Source: Bacteroidota bacterium (GTDB lineage Bacteria; Bacteroidota; Bacteroidia; Bacteroidales; F082). Taken from it: 64,000 nucleotides of DNA. Location of the stretch: contig JAERTD010000011.1 in the NCBI GenBank assembly GCA_016845175.1, positions 1-64,000 of the forward strand, read 5' to 3'. The notes beneath the pieces are model-generated. The model made no database searches and was not told where the DNA came from. It saw nothing but the letters and a program-made list of their open reading frames with translations. Every line of letters begins with the position of its first letter. The first letter of the stretch is position 1. Position numbers and translations under genes: made by a program. This document shows, one piece after another, positions 50,053-58,930 of this stretch.

Positions 50053-50262
50053 TGGATTAGGAAATTATAAGTCAACAAAATTACAAATGAAATAGGGGAA
50101 TGCATTGCTTGATAAAGAGTTATGATTAACAATTTTTCAACATTTTTTGTCTCAAACTAGCTCATATTTTTATATTTGCCTCGTCAAGCAAACAAACCCA
50201 TCCTTAACATTTTCTTAATATTAAAATAACACAGGGCTAATATCCAGGAGGTTTTCAGCATA

Positions 50263-50270
50263 TATATTTG
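50263..50270 (+). promoter_or_regulatory. -7 element of the CarboxypepD_reg-like protein gene
   Basis: TATATTTG fits TAnnTTTG, and its start near 50277 leaves 18 bases before the ATG at 50295, ruling out the in-frame TTG at 50268. Confidence 0.5.
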
Positions 50271-50294: not shown

Positions 50295-50621
50295 ATGAAA
50301 AAATTTGTTGCAATTATAGCCATCGTTTTTATCAGCTCTTCAATTCTTTTCGCAGGTGTAGATAAAGCTCCAGTAGCAAAAGCATCAGTTAATGGTGTGA
50401 TCGTAGATAAAGCCACGGGTGAGGCATTGGCAGGAGTAAAAGTCAGTATCGAAGAAATTAACAAAGTTGTTTATACCGATCTTGATGGCAATTTTGAATT
50501 TGAGTCACTATCAACAGGAACATATAACATTAAAACTGATCTTATCTCTTATGAGGACAACAAGATGAAGGTTGATGTTGAAGCTACTACCTCTTTAAAA
50601 ATTGAGGTTAAAAGTGAATAA
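50295..50621 (+). CDS. Small secreted protein with a single carboxypeptidase-regulatory-like (Ig) domain
   Basis: 108 residues from the ATG at 50295. A signal peptide ends near FAG (residue 20). The remainder is one CarboxypepD_reg-like beta-sandwich (SVNGVIVDKATGEALAGVKV ... DGNFEFESLSTGTYNIK), the module usually found at the N-terminus of TonB receptors. It stands alone here with its own promoter and terminator. Function unknown. Confidence 0.85.
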   Translation: MKKFVAIIAIVFISSSILFAGVDKAPVAKASVNGVIVDKATGEALAGVKVSIEEINKVVYTDLDGNFEFESLSTGTYNIKTDLISYEDNKMKVDVEATTSLKIEVKSE

Positions 50622-51325: not shown

Positions 51326-52096
51326 ATGAACAAAATTGTTTTCAAATTATTTATTGGAATTTTGTTTTTAAGCTTCATCAGTTGTAACCAAACAAATCAG
51401 AAATCAAAACAAGCTGATGAAATAAAACTAACTTCTACGGAGCTAGTAAAAGAAGTTATGACAAAGCAAGCGCAGGAGAATATGACACCCGATGAGGCAT
51501 TAAAAGACCTTATGAAAGGTAATGAACGTTATGTGTCAGGAGAATTAATTAATCGTGATCTGCCAGCTCAAGTCGAAGCGACAACTAACGGGCAATATCC
51601 TAAAGCAGTTGTTTTAGCCTGTATCGATTCCCGTGTACCTGTTGAGTATATATTTGACCAGGGGATTGGAGATATGTTTGTAGTTCGGGTAGCAGGAAAT
51701 ATTGAGGATGAAGAACTGCTGGGAAGCATGGAGTATGGTGTAGGGGTTGCCGGTTCGAAACTGATCATGGTGCTTGGCCATGAAAACTGCGGTGCTGTAA
51801 AATCTGGGATTAACCAAGTAGATGTTGGAAGTGAAAATGTTGATGCTTTGCTAAGCCACCTGGAGCAAGCTATTCAGGAAGTTGAGGGCGAAAGGAATGC
51901 AAAAAACAAAAAATACTTCGATGATGTTGTCAAAAACAATGTTGACCAAACGGTGGAAGACATTAGGAATAAAAGTGCCATAATCAGTGGGCTGGAAAAA
52001 GAAGGCAAAATAAAAGTAGTAGGTGCCTATTATAGTCTAACAGATGGAAAAGTCACAATTCTTGAGAATGGTTCGCATAGTCACCCTGAACATTAA
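51326..52096 (+). CDS. Beta-class carbonic anhydrase, lipoprotein
   Basis: Hydrates CO2 to bicarbonate. 256 residues. The lipobox FISC puts a lipid-anchored Cys at 20, so the enzyme lies outside the cytoplasm, unlike most beta carbonic anhydrases. The acid after Cys20 needed for surface export is missing (CNQTNQ), so a periplasmic face is likely. Zinc ligands: Cys99 in ACIDSRV, His152 and Cys155 in GHENCGAV; Asp101 and Arg103 form the catalytic dyad. C-terminal histidines (HSHPEH) may also bind metal. Single-gene unit. Confidence 0.92.
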   Translation: MNKIVFKLFIGILFLSFISCNQTNQKSKQADEIKLTSTELVKEVMTKQAQENMTPDEALKDLMKGNERYVSGELINRDLPAQVEATTNGQYPKAVVLACIDSRVPVEYIFDQGIGDMFVVRVAGNIEDEELLGSMEYGVGVAGSKLIMVLGHENCGAVKSGINQVDVGSENVDALLSHLEQAIQEVEGERNAKNKKYFDDVVKNNVDQTVEDIRNKSAIISGLEKEGKIKVVGAYYSLTDGKVTILENGSHSHPEH

Positions 52097-52484: not shown

Positions 52485-55334
52485 TTAAAAGCTGTACGAA
52501 TATTTTAGGCTAACAGCAGTTCCGGGATTATATTTGCTGAACACCTGGTCTTTAGCATCATAGGATTTATAATGCATTTCAACTGTCTGGTTCAGGATAT
52601 TGTCGATACCCAGAGTAATTCTGCTATTGTATTCTTTGCCGAAACTGTAATAGGCATTAAAGTTCAGACTATGAAACGGATTGAGGTAAACATCAGGAAT
52701 TCTACCTGAACCAATAATGCTAAGTTGTTCACCTTTTACATTATAGGCAAGGCTTATGGCAGTTTTTCTTTCAATTATTTCATAGGAGATATTGGCATTA
52801 ATAGCGTAGGGGGATTGACCTGCCATATCTCTGAATTGATTAATAGTTTCACCAGTTCTCGCATTGTTCTCCCTTAGCTCATATTCAGTTTGGTTTTCAT
52901 TACCCGTATTTACCTTTTTCATGTCGACCAAGGATTGCACCAGGGTTACATTACCTCCAAGGAATAAACGATTCAGGAATGTACTCGAAGCATTGGGGAA
53001 TCCCTTTCTGATTTCGAATTCAACACCTGTAACACTGGCGTCACCAGAATTTCGGGGTTTAACGTTATCAGGATCCTGCTCAAAAGAAACCAACTCGATA
53101 TGTCCATCGAACATTTTGTGGAACACAGCTACAGAAATAATTTCCTTGGGTGAGAAAAACCATTCATATCTCAAATCGAGGTTTACAATTTTTGTTTGTT
53201 CCAGATCGATATTGCCCACAAATGTTCGTTTAGATATGGGATCATAGATTTGTGATATGGATTTCTCCTTAAAACTTGGTCGTGCAATGGTCTGGGTTCC
53301 TGTAAGTCTGATGTTCATATCATTCCTGACAGAGTAGACAATATTTGCTGAAGGCAGAAAATTGAATTCATCAAGCGTTTTCTCACGATCATAGATCACA
53401 TCACCTGAATTGGATTCACCGGTATAAAACATTTCACCTTTTTCAATACGAAGGCCATATATAAATTTAAATTTCTCACCTGCATTCTGTTCTGCCATCA
53501 AATAGGCGCTGAACACATTTTGTTGGGCTTTGAAGTTGTTGGCGGGCTGGAAATTTCCTGTGGTATACGTACCACTTCTGTCCCCACCATATTCCCAAAC
53601 ATTTCCATCAGCCAGAAACCAGTCAGGATCACCACTCACATTACTTTTATCCCTTCTGTCGTGTTTATAACTCAGGGTTTCAAACTCACGCCATTTGATT
53701 AATCCATTGATCCCGGCTTTAAGGGTAAATTTCTCACCCAATGCTGAAGCCACATCTATCCGGAAGTTTTCGTTTTGCTCATTAAGGTCACGCCAGAACC
53801 TTCCAATGGTGGCACCATCACCAGTACTCAGGGTGGTATCGCCTTGTTTAATGGATAGGGCAGTAGTCCTAAAATCCGGATCATAAACTCTTGATACAGT
53901 AAAAGCATTGGACCAACTCAGACGGGTGGTGCCAAACAGGTGCTCACCATTAATAATTCCAGTGGAAAGTGACCGCTGGGTATAGGTTAATATATCTTCA
54001 AGCAAGGTAGCTTGTGTTTGGTTATAGTTCTGACTGACTCTTTTGGAAGCCGTTGATTCATTGCTTTGGTTCATCAGCAACATCAGGCCAACAGAGTGCT
54101 TGTTCTTTTTGTAAGACCCTGAAGCCATAGCGCTCCATTGTGCAGCGCGTCCACCTACGATACCACTGCGTCCTTCATCTTGTTCGAGTTCCATTTCGCC
54201 GGGATTTGAACTCTTTAAATAGGAATTGGATTGGTAATCAGAATAGAAACTAGATGAGTTTTTATAGTTTAAAACAAAGTTGTATCCAATGGCCGATCCG
54301 TTTTCAGAATTGATTTGATTTCCATGGTTAAATGAAAAGGAGCCTCCAGGGAGAGCTGTCTTCGATTCAACAGCCATTTGTTGATTGAATGACTTTGTAA
54401 TGCTTTCCAGCTTAGGTCCTTCTACATCATCAAATGCAGCTACTACTTCCAGTGGAATCTCTGTTTGTTTATCAAAGGGTAATGATCTCGTACCATCATC
54501 AAAACCTGTCCAGTCGAATTTTCCACCTGTGTAGAGTATATAATCCGAATTGAAGGTTTGGCCATCAATATATTCGAGTCCAATGGAGAAACTTGTGCTT
54601 TTCACATCAGGAAAGCTTTTGGTTTCCACATCAACTAATCCTCCTGTAAAATCACCAAACAAATCGGGTGTGAATGTTTTGTAAACCGATACATTTTCTA
54701 ATACAGCTGTCGGGAAAATGTCGATCTGCACCGCATTAACATCAGGGTCCAATCCAGGAATAGCCATGCCATTCAGGGTGGTTTTGGTATACCTGTCACC
54801 TAGCCCTCTGACATATACATATTTACCTCCTTCAACAGTTACACCGGTAACCCTTTTGATAGCACCTGAGAGATCACTATCACCAACTTTTCTAAAGGAC
54901 TGGGCTGAGAGACCATCCACAATATTAGTTGAATTTTTCATTCTGGTCAGCATGCCAACAACTGAGCTCTGCCTGGCCTTTGCTACGATTACCACTTCAG
55001 TTAAAAGTTCGTCAGCAGGTTTTAATACAGCATCCACAACGGTCGTTTCACCTTCCTTAATTTCAACCTCTTTAAAAGAAAGTGTTTCATATGAAATATA
55101 GGACATGGTTATGGTGTATGTACCTGGTGCCAGACTTAAAGAATAGTTACCATCAAAGTCGGTTACTGTACCTATGGAAGGCTGATCGGCTAAAATTATT
55201 GTGGCACCAATTAATGGGCCTCCAAAATCGCCATCTACCACATTGCCACGCAAAAATCCCTGACCATTCGATACAAGATGAGCGAATAGAAAAGAGCTGA
55301 AAAAGAATACAAGAATAATTCGGTTAAGCTTCAT
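52485..55334 (-). CDS. TonB-dependent outer-membrane receptor with N-terminal carboxypeptidase-regulatory domain
   Basis: 949 residues from the ATG at 55334; the longer frame starts at a TTG inside a hairpin. After a signal peptide ending at SNGQ comes a CarboxypepD_reg-like domain (about 28-110, FLRGNVVDGDFGGPLIGAT), a plug (about 115-235) with YVRGLGDRYTKTTLNGMAIP and DLFGDFTGGLVDVETKSFPD, and the barrel ending VSLKYSYSF. No SusD gene is adjacent. Two beta-helix surface lipoproteins lie upstream on the same strand, 70 bases away, with Pho-box-like sites before them. A role in uptake of a phosphate source is therefore plausible but unproven. Confidence 0.93.
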   Translation of the reverse strand: MKLNRIILVFFFSSFLFAHLVSNGQGFLRGNVVDGDFGGPLIGATIILADQPSIGTVTDFDGNYSLSLAPGTYTITMSYISYETLSFKEVEIKEGETTVVDAVLKPADELLTEVVIVAKARQSSVVGMLTRMKNSTNIVDGLSAQSFRKVGDSDLSGAIKRVTGVTVEGGKYVYVRGLGDRYTKTTLNGMAIPGLDPDVNAVQIDIFPTAVLENVSVYKTFTPDLFGDFTGGLVDVETKSFPDVKSTSFSIGLEYIDGQTFNSDYILYTGGKFDWTGFDDGTRSLPFDKQTEIPLEVVAAFDDVEGPKLESITKSFNQQMAVESKTALPGGSFSFNHGNQINSENGSAIGYNFVLNYKNSSSFYSDYQSNSYLKSSNPGEMELEQDEGRSGIVGGRAAQWSAMASGSYKKNKHSVGLMLLMNQSNESTASKRVSQNYNQTQATLLEDILTYTQRSLSTGIINGEHLFGTTRLSWSNAFTVSRVYDPDFRTTALSIKQGDTTLSTGDGATIGRFWRDLNEQNENFRIDVASALGEKFTLKAGINGLIKWREFETLSYKHDRRDKSNVSGDPDWFLADGNVWEYGGDRSGTYTTGNFQPANNFKAQQNVFSAYLMAEQNAGEKFKFIYGLRIEKGEMFYTGESNSGDVIYDREKTLDEFNFLPSANIVYSVRNDMNIRLTGTQTIARPSFKEKSISQIYDPISKRTFVGNIDLEQTKIVNLDLRYEWFFSPKEIISVAVFHKMFDGHIELVSFEQDPDNVKPRNSGDASVTGVEFEIRKGFPNASSTFLNRLFLGGNVTLVQSLVDMKKVNTGNENQTEYELRENNARTGETINQFRDMAGQSPYAINANISYEIIERKTAISLAYNVKGEQLSIIGSGRIPDVYLNPFHSLNFNAYYSFGKEYNSRITLGIDNILNQTVEMHYKSYDAKDQVFSKYNPGTAVSLKYSYSF

Positions 55335-55348
55335 TTTAATATAGGTCA

Positions 55349-55376
55349 AAACCCTGTGGTAAAAACCACAGGGTTT
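55349..55376 (-). terminator. Hairpin between the beta-helix lipoprotein gene and the TonB receptor gene
   Basis: AACCCTGTGGT pairs with ACCACAGGGTT around AAAA, an 11-bp perfect stem placed between the upstream gene's stop and the receptor ATG. On the minus strand it is followed only by TTTTG, so it may be a leaky terminator or an mRNA stabiliser that sets the ratio of the two products. Confidence 0.55.
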
Positions 55377-55404: not shown

Positions 55405-57027
55405 TTATAATTCACCACGTTCTCCAGCACATGTCCATCCGAAAGTAGCAGCTACATCAAGTGTGGCACCAGCACCATTAAATTCAATAATACTAGCAGC
55501 CGTTGCATTGGCAGCATCAAGTTCATCCACGCAAACTGCTGGATCTGGTTTGTCACCATCATATACTTTTACGGCATCCAGTATAACGTCTGAGAAAACA
55601 AGTGTTGCCGGGTTATCTATGGCAAGATGTGAATAGGCATCTTCCTTATGTGTACAATCCACACCAGGATCCACAAATTTTGTTCTGAATTTCACTGGAA
55701 GATCTGCACCATAGTTAATCCATGTTACATTGTTTATATAACCCTGAGCTTTTGATTTGAAATCAGCAGCTGAACCATCTTCAGTACCATCTCTTTTAAT
55801 AACCCCATTGGTTAAGGTAAACATACCATCCTTATAGGTGTCGCCTTCAGGTCCGTCAATTTCAAGACCTTCATCAGTTCCCACGCCATCGCCGTGTATA
55901 ACTGCAAAGTCAGAAATGGTTCCTGCATAGTTCATGTCTAGGTCCACTCCGTCATCACCCTGATAAAATACCAAGGCATTGCTAATGTTAACAGTTCCGC
56001 CAAAACACTCAATTCCATCATCGAGGGTAGCATAAACTTCCACATTGGAAATGCTGGTTCCTGTTCCTACACCACCCAGTGTAAGACCATTGATTTCATT
56101 ACCTTCTCCAATTGAGATTCCGCCGTGACGGATAGAGATATAAGAAATAACTCCTGAGTTATCATCAGCCTGGTCACCACCAAATAAGCCATAACCTTCT
56201 TCTGGTGGAATGCCTTCGATATTGGTTTCTGTGTCACCATTTTCAGCTGAAATAGGCGCTTTTCCGAGTACAATTAAACCACCCCAAAGCTTGTTATCTA
56301 CTTTTTCAAGATTGGTTCCAACAGTACCACCGAAGGTAATATTGTCAGCCTCAGCAGTGAAGATAATTGGCTTTTCAGCAGTTCCTCCTGCCATAAGTTT
56401 CCCACCACGGGCAACCACCAGGGCAGAAGCCAGGGTTTCTTCACCAGGTTTACCCTTGATGATAGTACCTGCTTCAATGGTCAGTGTTACGCCATCAGCA
56501 ACAACGACTTTTCTGTCAAGCAAATAAATATTGTTCGCTGTCCAGGTTTCGTCGGCTGTAATCTGACCATTTTTGGTAATGGTTTCATTGGTTGTTCCAT
56601 CAAGACCAATGCTCTGTGATTGTGAAGATGACATGGCAGTTCCAGCTGCGTTGTAAATACTAGCATCAGGAGTAACTGTCACAGTCTCGCTTCCAGTTGA
56701 AAAATCAGCCAATTCAATGGCGATGGTAGCAGTTGTGCCACCAGCAGTATGAGTTACTTCATAAGCACTCAAAGCTGAACCTCCATCAAGAGTTACGTCG
56801 AAGTTAGCATTATCAAGATCACCACTTGCATCAGTGTTTTTATATACTGCTTCGCTAAAAGTAATACTTACTTCAAAAGCTTTGTTTTCACCACTTACAT
56901 CAATTGCATCCATGGTTGGTGGTACTGGGGTTGGTGTAGGATCGTCATCATCACTACATCCGGTAAAGCCAATTAAAATAGCAACTGTTAAGGCCGCAAT
57001 AATTTTAAATTCTTTCATTTTTTTCAT
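55405..57027 (-). CDS. Surface lipoprotein with right-handed beta-helix domain, second paralogue
   Basis: 540 residues. The lipobox ends in TGC (Cys24), followed by SDDDD, an acidic stretch that in Bacteroidota acts as a lipoprotein surface-export signal. Residues about 40-145 form a beta-sandwich domain (SGENKAFEVSITFSEAVYKN), and residues about 160-440 a parallel beta-helix with LTIEAGTIIKGKPG, WGGLIVLGKAPI, ISIRHGGISIGEGNEING and DDGIECFGG. The C-terminus is Cys-containing. It shares architecture with the next gene upstream (57138-58838). No T9SS domain. Pho-box-like repeats precede it at 57081-57109. The ligand is unknown. Confidence 0.85.
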   Translation of the reverse strand: MKKMKEFKIIAALTVAILIGFTGCSDDDDPTPTPVPPTMDAIDVSGENKAFEVSITFSEAVYKNTDASGDLDNANFDVTLDGGSALSAYEVTHTAGGTTATIAIELADFSTGSETVTVTPDASIYNAAGTAMSSSQSQSIGLDGTTNETITKNGQITADETWTANNIYLLDRKVVVADGVTLTIEAGTIIKGKPGEETLASALVVARGGKLMAGGTAEKPIIFTAEADNITFGGTVGTNLEKVDNKLWGGLIVLGKAPISAENGDTETNIEGIPPEEGYGLFGGDQADDNSGVISYISIRHGGISIGEGNEINGLTLGGVGTGTSISNVEVYATLDDGIECFGGTVNISNALVFYQGDDGVDLDMNYAGTISDFAVIHGDGVGTDEGLEIDGPEGDTYKDGMFTLTNGVIKRDGTEDGSAADFKSKAQGYINNVTWINYGADLPVKFRTKFVDPGVDCTHKEDAYSHLAIDNPATLVFSDVILDAVKVYDGDKPDPAVCVDELDAANATAASIIEFNGAGATLDVAATFGWTCAGERGEL

Positions 57028-57052: not shown

Positions 57053-57060
57053 CAAAAGTC
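57053..57060 (-). promoter_or_regulatory. -7-like element of the second beta-helix lipoprotein gene
   Basis: GACTTTTG on the minus strand, one base off TAnnTTTG, exactly 20 bases after the last Pho-box-like repeat and 25 bases before the ATG. Confidence 0.45.
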
Positions 57061-57080: not shown

Positions 57081-57109
57081 TGTTAAGCAAACATTAACTT
57101 TAGGTTAAC
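57081..57109 (-). promoter_or_regulatory. Pho-box-like triple direct repeat before the second beta-helix lipoprotein gene
   Basis: Reading the minus strand, three 7-mers GTTAACC, GTTAATG and CTTAACA are separated by 4 bases each, giving an 11-bp period. The core TTAAC recurs in all three. This is the layout bound by PhoB/PhoP-type OmpR-family regulators in other phyla. The -7-like GACTTTTG begins exactly 20 bases further on. Confidence 0.6.
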
Positions 57110-57137
57110 TAAATATAAACGGATAACTGATAATCAG

Positions 57138-58838
57138 CTATTTATCCCTATTCATATATTTGGAAAATAATGTCCACCCCTTGGCCCAGTTTTCTTCGGG
57201 GTCAATTGCACCCTTGTAATTTACCTGGGTAAACCAATTATCGGTAGGTAAATCAGCCATGTTTTCACTGACATTTGCTGATGGTACAATATCGAATGTA
57301 AGGCCGTTAAGCTCGAAGCCTGGATCCTGGTAAGAATTTCCTGCATCCACAAAATAGCTGGCTAGGGATTCATTTGCAGCCTCTTCTTCTTCCGTGCCCA
57401 CATTTTTTGCTGCGACAAATAGATAGGGGTCATTTATTCCATAGATGATATTATTCTTAATACTAAGGTTATTGTTTTCATATTGATCATAACTACAATC
57501 TCCGGCTAATAATTCAATGTCGATTCCAAAGGTTTGGTCATAGAATATTGAATTGGCATAATGCCCGCCAGCATTGTATCGAAAAGTGATCAAATTATTG
57601 CCATCGGATTGCCCACGGCCCACATAGGTTGTATTATAAATAATAGGAGTAGCAAGAGGTTCACCAAGCTCAGGATTTGTTCCTCCATCGTGTTCTCCCA
57701 GCCGATCACCTCTTTCAAAACCCTGGATTCCTGCCCAAAACTGACCATAGCCACGGTATCCCTGGTCATAGTCGAATGAATCATCACCTACAAAAGCAAC
57801 CAGAATATTTTTCAATCGTGCAGTACCACCAAAAATTTCTACCCCATCATCACGATTGGCAAAAACTTCAATAAACTCTATGGTGGTTTGGCTTCCTACA
57901 CCACCTAAGGTAAGTCCATTAATTTCGTTTCCTTCACCAATATCAGTACCTCCATGACGGATAGAAATATACCGAAGGATACCAGAATTATCTTCATCAT
58001 CTGTACCACCATACACACCGCGGGATTCTGCTGCAGGGATACCCTCAATTTGTTGTTCATTGGGTAGAGTATTCAAGCCGGCTTTACCCAAAATTATCAG
58101 GCCTCCCCATTTTCCACTTTCCAAATCATCGATTGACCCGTTCAGATCATCATCTTCCGAGGTGAATACAATAGGCTTTTCCTTTGTGCCATCAGCAATT
58201 ATAGTTCCACCTCGTGCCACAATTAAGGCAGAGGCGTTTTCACCCTGGCCGGATTTGCCCTTAATCACTGTTCCAGCTTCAATGGTGAGTGTTTGTCCTT
58301 CATTGACAAAAACCAGACCGTCTAAAAGGTAGGTATTTGTTGCAATCCAATTTGTAGTTCCTGTTCCGCTACCATCATCTTCAATGGTAATTGTTTCATA
58401 TTCTATGCCGTCCGTGGAAATCGTTTTGATTTGATCGGAGGGCATTAGCGTTCCATCATTGTTGTATATGGAAGCGCCTGAAGCATTATTTATGCTTACT
58501 CTTTCCAATCCACTGGCGTCCTTATCGAAATTCAATTTAATGTTTGCTATTTTATTGCCAGCATTATGAACCACAGAATAACTGCTTAATTGGGCAGATC
58601 CATAAGCCACTGTGACATTAAAATGACTTTCATCCAAATCACCGGAAATGTCATTGTTGGCATACACTCCAGTATTAAAACTAAGGCTCATCTCATAGTT
58701 CTTTCCATTACCGTCTATGGCGATTCCTGAAAATACTGGCGTTGAATCGGAGGGTTGACTTTGCTCTTCCTTTTTACAGGAACTTAGGCCATAGATAATA
58801 ATGGCCATCATTAATAAAACGATTGATCTTTCTTTCAT
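57138..58838 (-). CDS. Surface lipoprotein with right-handed beta-helix domain, first paralogue
   Basis: 566 residues. The lipobox LSSC gives Cys21, followed by KKEE, matching the K-(D/E)2 surface-export signal known in Bacteroidota. Residues about 35-150 form the same beta-sandwich as in the neighbour (YEMSLSFNTGVYANNDISGD), and the beta-helix from about 165 has LTIEAGTVIKGKSG, KWGGLIILGKAG, ISIRHGGTDIGEGNEINGL and RDDGVEIFGG. The C-terminal 60 residues end in a Trp- and Lys-rich segment without Cys pairs. Tandem paralogue of 55405-57027. Pho-box-like repeats precede it at 58902-58930. Confidence 0.85.
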   Translation of the reverse strand: MKERSIVLLMMAIIIYGLSSCKKEEQSQPSDSTPVFSGIAIDGNGKNYEMSLSFNTGVYANNDISGDLDESHFNVTVAYGSAQLSSYSVVHNAGNKIANIKLNFDKDASGLERVSINNASGASIYNNDGTLMPSDQIKTISTDGIEYETITIEDDGSGTGTTNWIATNTYLLDGLVFVNEGQTLTIEAGTVIKGKSGQGENASALIVARGGTIIADGTKEKPIVFTSEDDDLNGSIDDLESGKWGGLIILGKAGLNTLPNEQQIEGIPAAESRGVYGGTDDEDNSGILRYISIRHGGTDIGEGNEINGLTLGGVGSQTTIEFIEVFANRDDGVEIFGGTARLKNILVAFVGDDSFDYDQGYRGYGQFWAGIQGFERGDRLGEHDGGTNPELGEPLATPIIYNTTYVGRGQSDGNNLITFRYNAGGHYANSIFYDQTFGIDIELLAGDCSYDQYENNNLSIKNNIIYGINDPYLFVAAKNVGTEEEEAANESLASYFVDAGNSYQDPGFELNGLTFDIVPSANVSENMADLPTDNWFTQVNYKGAIDPEENWAKGWTLFSKYMNRDK

Positions 58839-58873
58839 TGCGTTATTATATGCTTAGAATAGTATTCTACTTG

Positions 58874-58881
58874 CAAAGGAA
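58874..58881 (-). promoter_or_regulatory. -7-like element of the first beta-helix lipoprotein gene
   Basis: TTCCTTTG on the minus strand, exactly 20 bases after the last Pho-box-like repeat; one mismatch to TAnnTTTG. The same spacing is seen in the paralogous gene. Confidence 0.45.
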
Positions 58882-58901
58882 AATCGAATGGCTCAATTCA
58901 A

Positions 58902-58930
58902 TGTTAAGCTATTGTAAAGTCTATGTTAAG
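58902..58930 (-). promoter_or_regulatory. Pho-box-like triple direct repeat before the first beta-helix lipoprotein gene
   Basis: On the minus strand CTTAACA, CTTTACA and CTTAACA are separated by 4 bases each (11-bp period), and a weaker fourth unit (CATCACA) continues the period at 58935-58941. The period and the TTAACA core match PhoB/PhoP binding sites described in other phyla. The layout equals that at 57081-57109. Confidence 0.62.

Follow-up and report, generated by a model that had tools for sequence, protein, structure and literature searches.

Bacillus PhoP boxes are TTAACA-like direct repeats set on an 11-bp step, and they serve Gram-positive promoters and targets. The PhoB box of Escherichia coli (CTGTCAT) follows the same plan, with 7-bp units separated by 4 bp to give 11-bp direct repeats, on which an OmpR-family regulator assembles head-to-tail, and the box keeps a constant distance to the promoter core (PMC4415409, PMC1906773). 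In cyanobacteria, the SphR boxes (CTTAACCT) that precede pst and phoA consist of three 8-mers joined by 3-bp linkers (PMC1906773).

Phosphate-starvation regulons of Bacteroidota have so far been derived from expression data, and no Bacteroidetes Pho box was found in the searchable open literature. The genes reported to be induced by Pi starvation in Flavobacterium johnsoniae include those for FI, FII, FIII, TonB receptors, PhoA1 and a MauG-like protein in the PhoX cluster, with FII situated in the phoBR cluster (PMC8115612). A comparable Pi-starvation lipoprotein, ElpS of Caulobacter, also has a TonB receptor as its neighbour, and its overexpression raised extracellular phosphatase activity (PMC2996285). 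These starvation-induced surface lipoproteins, several of them encoded beside TonB receptors and some pectin-lyase-like, are presented in the accessible portions of both reports without a promoter element (PMC8115612, PMC2996285). Another regulator is PhoP of Riemerella anatipestifer, an OmpR-type protein of the Flavobacteriales that recognises TTTAACA and binds its own promoter as well as those of moxR and TonB receptors. However, it is described as ArcA-like and is tied to virulence and redox, and the accessible part of the report mentions no 11-bp triple repeats, -7 spacing or phosphate genes (PMC9603813).

Here we analyse a 64,000-nucleotide stretch of a Bacteroidota genome (hereafter the window), in which tandem 11-base repeats stand ahead of two lipoprotein genes. 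As predicted, it is very probable that a PhoB-type regulator of phosphate starvation docks on these repeats.

Three repeat arrays in the window

The original prediction described the two genes as encoding paralogous surface lipoproteins, and this description holds. Proteins A and B share 46% identity over 381 aa, and each was recognised by eye as a lipoprotein from a signal peptide followed by Cys. An AlphaFold model of lipoprotein B (mean pLDDT 88, built from 26 sequences) combines an N-terminal Ig-like beta-sandwich with a right-handed beta-helix, and its matches in the PDB, all weak, are to beta-helix carbohydrate-active enzymes, tailspikes and adhesins. Both the fold and the TonB-receptor neighbourhood agree with ElpS and FI-FIII, as compared by description, although the window proteins differ in having the extra Ig-like domain. 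FI-like proteins from a Flavobacterium-like genus align to them at 29-33%. No Pho-box promoter of its own was found upstream of the receptor gene.

Table 1. Features of the window, and of related loci elsewhere, with their positions and strands.
Feature	Position	Strand	Sequence or description	Remarks
TonB-dependent receptor	52485..55349	-	CarbopepD_reg, Plug, TIGR01782-like	Downstream of lipoprotein A
Lipoprotein A	55405..57027	-	540 aa, paralogue of B	Downstream of site A
Lipoprotein B	57138..58838	-	566 aa	Downstream of site B
Site A, three units	57109-57103, 57098-57092, 57087-57081	-	GTTAACC, GTTAATG, CTTAACA	Letters verified one by one
Site A, spacers	57081-57109	-	GTTAACC-taaa-GTTAATG-tttg-CTTAACA	
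Site A, degenerate fourth unit	57120-57114	-	GTTTATA	In phase; site A overall 57081..57120
Site A, -7-like element	57053..57060	-	GACTTTTG	8-mer ending TTTG
Site B, three units	58930-58924, 58919-58913, 58908-58902	-	CTTAACA, CTTTACA, CTTAACA	Letters verified
Site B, spacers	58902..58930	-	CTTAACA-taga-CTTTACA-atag-CTTAACA	11-bp step
Site B, -7-like element	58874..58881	-	TTCCTTTG	8-mer ending TTTG
Site C, four units	50203..50242	+	CTTAACA-tttt-CTTAATA-ttaa-AATAACA-cagg-GCTAATA	
Site C, -7 element	50263..50270	+	TATATTTG	Perfect TAnnTTTG; TTTG 24 bp past last unit
Site C with -7 element	50203-50270	+		
Small secreted protein	50295..50621	+	108 aa, CarboxypepD-regulatory-like, signal-peptide-like start	Downstream of site C
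Hairpin (by eye)	55350-55375	-	AACCCTGTGGT-tttt-ACCACAGGGTT	26 bp; between lipoprotein A and receptor
ORF	51326-52096	+		
Candidate regulator	L008:1492-2172			
Kinase	L008:375-1424			Beside candidate regulator
Second OmpR-type gene, Flavobacteriales	L028:10906-11583, L029:10320-10997, L030:11043-11717, L032:10980-11657	-		Near lipoprotein/receptor cluster

The repeats had been characterised as 7-mers of the CTTAACA type with 4-base spacers and an 11-bp period (Table 1, sites A and B). The geometry is as claimed at both sites, but only site B as a whole comes close to perfect CTTAACA, site A being looser. A letter-by-letter check bore out the claim that exactly 20 bases separate the last repeat from a -7-like element at each site; adding the first half of the 8-bp element, TTTG begins exactly 24 bp past the last 7-mer. 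Both elements have TTTG only and lack the TA of the consensus TAnnTTTG.

The full pattern matches twice in the window compared with a mean of 0.09 in shuffled sequences, and none of 100 shuffles reached two matches, in keeping with the earlier argument that two such copies are hard to explain by chance. Across the whole 3.9 Mb genome, no position other than sites A and B matches with at most one mismatch, and the remaining matches at three mismatches resemble background. Among the weak matches, C11:188080 (before a MarR-like gene) and C40:121915 were judged to be background, as was the C14 match, which falls within a gldM-like gene and has the wrong orientation. A second promoter on the reverse strand at sites A and B was rejected, the matches there being an effect of the near-palindrome TTAAC/GTTAA.

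A further array, site C, had escaped the original prediction. Orthologues of the small protein encoded downstream of it adjoin lipoprotein genes in four other loci (L018, L019, L020 and L024), where in-phase repeats again lie upstream. Compared with E. coli, the units have a TTAAC rather than a TGTCA core, number three to four, and precede a TAnnTTTG rather than a TATAAT promoter core. The SphR boxes share nearly the same core sequence, the 11-bp period and the count of three units (PMC1906773). However, they belong to another phylum and promoter type, whereas the sites described here are paired with Bacteroidota -7 elements and lipoprotein/TonB genes.

Recurrence of the arrays and the genes behind them

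A scan of GTDB genomes with lipoprotein B returned 43 loci, and 77 regions upstream of lipoprotein and receptor homologues were scored for repeat periods from 6 to 17. With an 11-bp period, 35 of the 77 reach at least 12 of 15 core bases, whereas any other period yields at most 8. Promoters of orthologues retain the repeats at protein identities as low as about 30-60%, and the triple repeat recurs as far as Ignavibacteria, where two loci (L039 and L042) present 15 of 15 core bases. The original prediction had been staked on such conservation, which is present even in distant orthologues.

The spacing to the promoter is similarly constrained. In 32 strong sites outside the window, TTTG lies at a distance of 24 bp (19 sites), 35 bp (5 sites) or 13 bp (2 sites), with all others seen once each. 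These three distances are in 11-bp phase, and seven sites are one 11-bp step away from 24. We also compiled a profile of 53 non-redundant sites anchored on TTTG, in which the TTAAC and TTTG columns are conserved by construction and were left out of the evidence. Columns outside this selection are nonetheless conserved, namely TA at -4/-3 (TAnnTTTG), the C that follows TTTG and, at the promoter-proximal end, a weak fourth repeat. The C is the weaker evidence, because some profile sites came from the 296-genome pattern matches described below and had been preselected for TTTGC.

Words resembling TTAAC are frequent at 40% GC and the two genes are paralogues, as would be expected if the repeats had no regulatory function and were either AT-rich sequence that arose by chance or a leftover of gene duplication. 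Yet shuffling never gave two sites, the geometry is shared by distant orthologues and by unrelated genes, and controls with a period of 12 or altered spacing do not find the sites. Conservation across phyla refutes this explanation, whose probability we consider practically negligible.

When the full pattern was searched in 296 Bacteroidota genomes with one mismatch allowed, 21 matches were obtained in 17 genomes. A control with a period of 12 gave a single match, and another in which the -7 element was moved 5 bp nearer gave none. Excluding the window genome, the 19 matches comprise eight at phosphate genes (L077, L083, L086, L088, L090, L092, L094 and L096), nine at TonB receptors (L078, L079, L080, L081, L084, L087, L089, L091 and L095) and two others (L082 and L085). 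The phosphate genes encode PstS, a porin then PstS, Porin_O_P alone, or a PstC-like permease. All of the receptors except that of L091 are homologous to the window receptor (29-40% identity), and in L089 and L095 a divergent PstS gene lies about 2 kb from the receptor match. The strict consensus is an incomplete regulon finder, since most genomes have no match at such stringency.

In a Flavobacterium-like genus, 24 matches were recorded against 11 for a reversed-pattern control, so some of them are background. Their targets include genes for PHO4/Pit, PhoU_div (three), PhoA, PhoX, CCP_MauG (four), Porin_O_P and FI-like lipoproteins (four). Regions upstream of PstS were evaluated separately. 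The first sample (the 30 best-scoring loci; 3 of 30 versus 0.12 expected) was skewed to one family, f71, and a second set of 40 was drawn instead, in which 7 regions reach 15 of 19 versus 0.43 expected. The Pho box is not universal on pst. Nevertheless, matches stand phylum-wide before pst, Pit, PhoU-like, PhoA, PhoX and phosphate-selective porin genes, which are the kinds of targets (pst, pho and phosphatase genes) that the original prediction expected a scan to uncover. This association with phosphate genes is a direct result of the computations, as are the sites themselves, the way they are spaced and the degree to which they are conserved.

For the genome that contains the window, PstS (PF12849) and PhoU (PF01895) gave no match in the assembly, which is 91.7% complete, and no good site was found at its Porin_O_P genes other than that of L128, where the gene could be located. 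Given an assembly without PstS or PhoU matches, the motif occurs within this genome only at the lipoproteins and the small protein. Either the contigs with these genes are absent from the assembly, or the box is used here chiefly for the surface system.

The candidate regulator and its signal

Six matches to the OmpR-type DNA-binding domain (Trans_reg_C) were found in the window genome. The protein that scores best against PhoB models (Table 1, L008) is encoded next to a kinase gene and is the best candidate regulator, as judged from its homology and from the neighbourhood of its orthologues. In contrast to E. coli PhoB, it falls below the PhoB equivalog cut-offs, with 207.6 versus 270 bits for NCBIfam NF053854 and 206.1 versus 296.2 bits for TIGR02154, but these are nevertheless its two top-scoring models. 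In Flavobacteriales loci L028-L032, a PhoB-like regulator with 58-61% identity to the L008 protein is encoded divergently from the lipoprotein, whereas the other regulators of the window genome are only about 30-36% identical to it. The kinases of L028 and L032 share 45-47% identity with the kinase of L008. Repeats are present in the regulator promoter in L028, L029, L030 and L032, and no clear triple repeat was seen in the promoter of L008 itself.

A PhoP/PhoB-like OmpR regulator might own these sites and yet respond to envelope or redox stress rather than phosphate. Such stress has been proposed for Riemerella PhoP, which has TTTAACA as its DAP-seq motif and was mapped to its own promoter and to moxR; the Bat operon, like moxR, belongs to its regulon (PMC9603813). 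Two of the Flavobacterium-like matches (L134 and L140) stand before a gene for a MoxR-type ATPase, the window genome has no PstS and PhoU matches, and the L008 protein is under the PhoB cut-off. However, matches elsewhere are mostly at phosphate uptake or phosphatase genes, and in F. johnsoniae the genes that react most strongly to Pi starvation include related lipoprotein/receptor families (PMC8115612). Induction of Caulobacter ElpS by Pi starvation points the same way (PMC2996285). We regard a stress signal as unlikely and phosphate as the preferred one.

The Flavobacteriales loci also carry a second OmpR-type gene near the lipoprotein/receptor cluster (Table 1). Its product starts with an ISIFSSN-like sequence rather than ILLVDDE and lacks the acidic pair (by eye), and the gene has its own triple TTAAC repeat. 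It is possibly a pseudo-receiver paralogue of PhoB. These loci lend some weight to the idea that the sites are repression operators, or that they serve this second paralogue, rather than support PhoB-like activation. Against this idea, the array stops a constant 24 bp short of the -7 element, like those of activators that replace the -33/-35 element. In addition, no orthologue of the second gene was recognised in the window genome among the six Trans_reg_C matches, five of which were compared. This idea is very improbable.

Proposed mechanism of phosphate control

In all likelihood, the three arrays of the window are Pho boxes of the Bacteroidota, at which a PhoB-like OmpR-family regulator would act as an activator. 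Conservation, phosphate-gene targets and a motif-bearing PhoB-like regulator beside the lipoprotein in Flavobacteriales make this interpretation well supported, and the specificity for period and spacing is further genomic evidence in favour of the PhoB/PhoP assignment first proposed. Like known Pho boxes, the arrays are 7-mer direct repeats on an 11-bp step, they occupy a fixed place before the promoter core in lieu of a -35/-33 element (TTTG at +24, +35 or +13), and they precede phosphate uptake and phosphatase genes across Bacteroidota, incompletely so on pst.

From these data we infer which protein the regulator is, that it binds the sites directly and activates the genes, and that in this organism it answers to phosphate. 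Under low phosphate, the PhoR-like kinase of L008 would phosphorylate the neighbouring PhoB-like regulator, three or four protomers of which would bind the TTAAC cores head-to-tail, one per 11-bp turn. The array would stand in for the usual -33 element, its end lying 24 bp ahead of TTTG in a -7 element of the TAnnTTTG type. At this distance, the last protomer could touch the primary sigma factor and bring in polymerase. The genes switched on would be those for the two ElpS/FI-III-type beta-helix surface lipoproteins and the small CarboxypepD-like protein, and the co-oriented TonB receptor would probably follow by read-through. At the cell surface, their products are predicted to capture phosphorus compounds or to mobilise them.

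On balance, we favour a broader proposal with three linked parts. First, a box of three to four (C/G)TTAAC(A/C) units on an 11-bp step, 24 bp before TAnnTTTG, would be used phylum-wide. Second, it would control pst, phosphatases and a dedicated pair of TonB receptor and beta-helix lipoprotein for surface phosphorus. Third, it would persist where no pst has been assembled, and there may serve the receptor/lipoprotein pair alone.

The repeats would define the form that a phosphate switch takes in Bacteroidota. A pattern of constant repeat period, set at a constant distance from the -7 element of the phylum, would make part of the regulon predictable from sequence, and the pattern should help to tell phosphate-scavenging TonB systems from the numerous sugar ones. 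In addition, a previously uncharacterised lipoprotein/receptor family would now be tied to phosphorus acquisition, and PhoB-type activation at a promoter that is not of the sigma70 type becomes directly testable.

Two minor elements of the window lie near these genes. The hairpin listed in Table 1 may be an attenuator of read-through into the receptor. The product of the ORF listed there resembles, by eye, a beta-carbonic anhydrase whose N terminus is like that of a lipoprotein.
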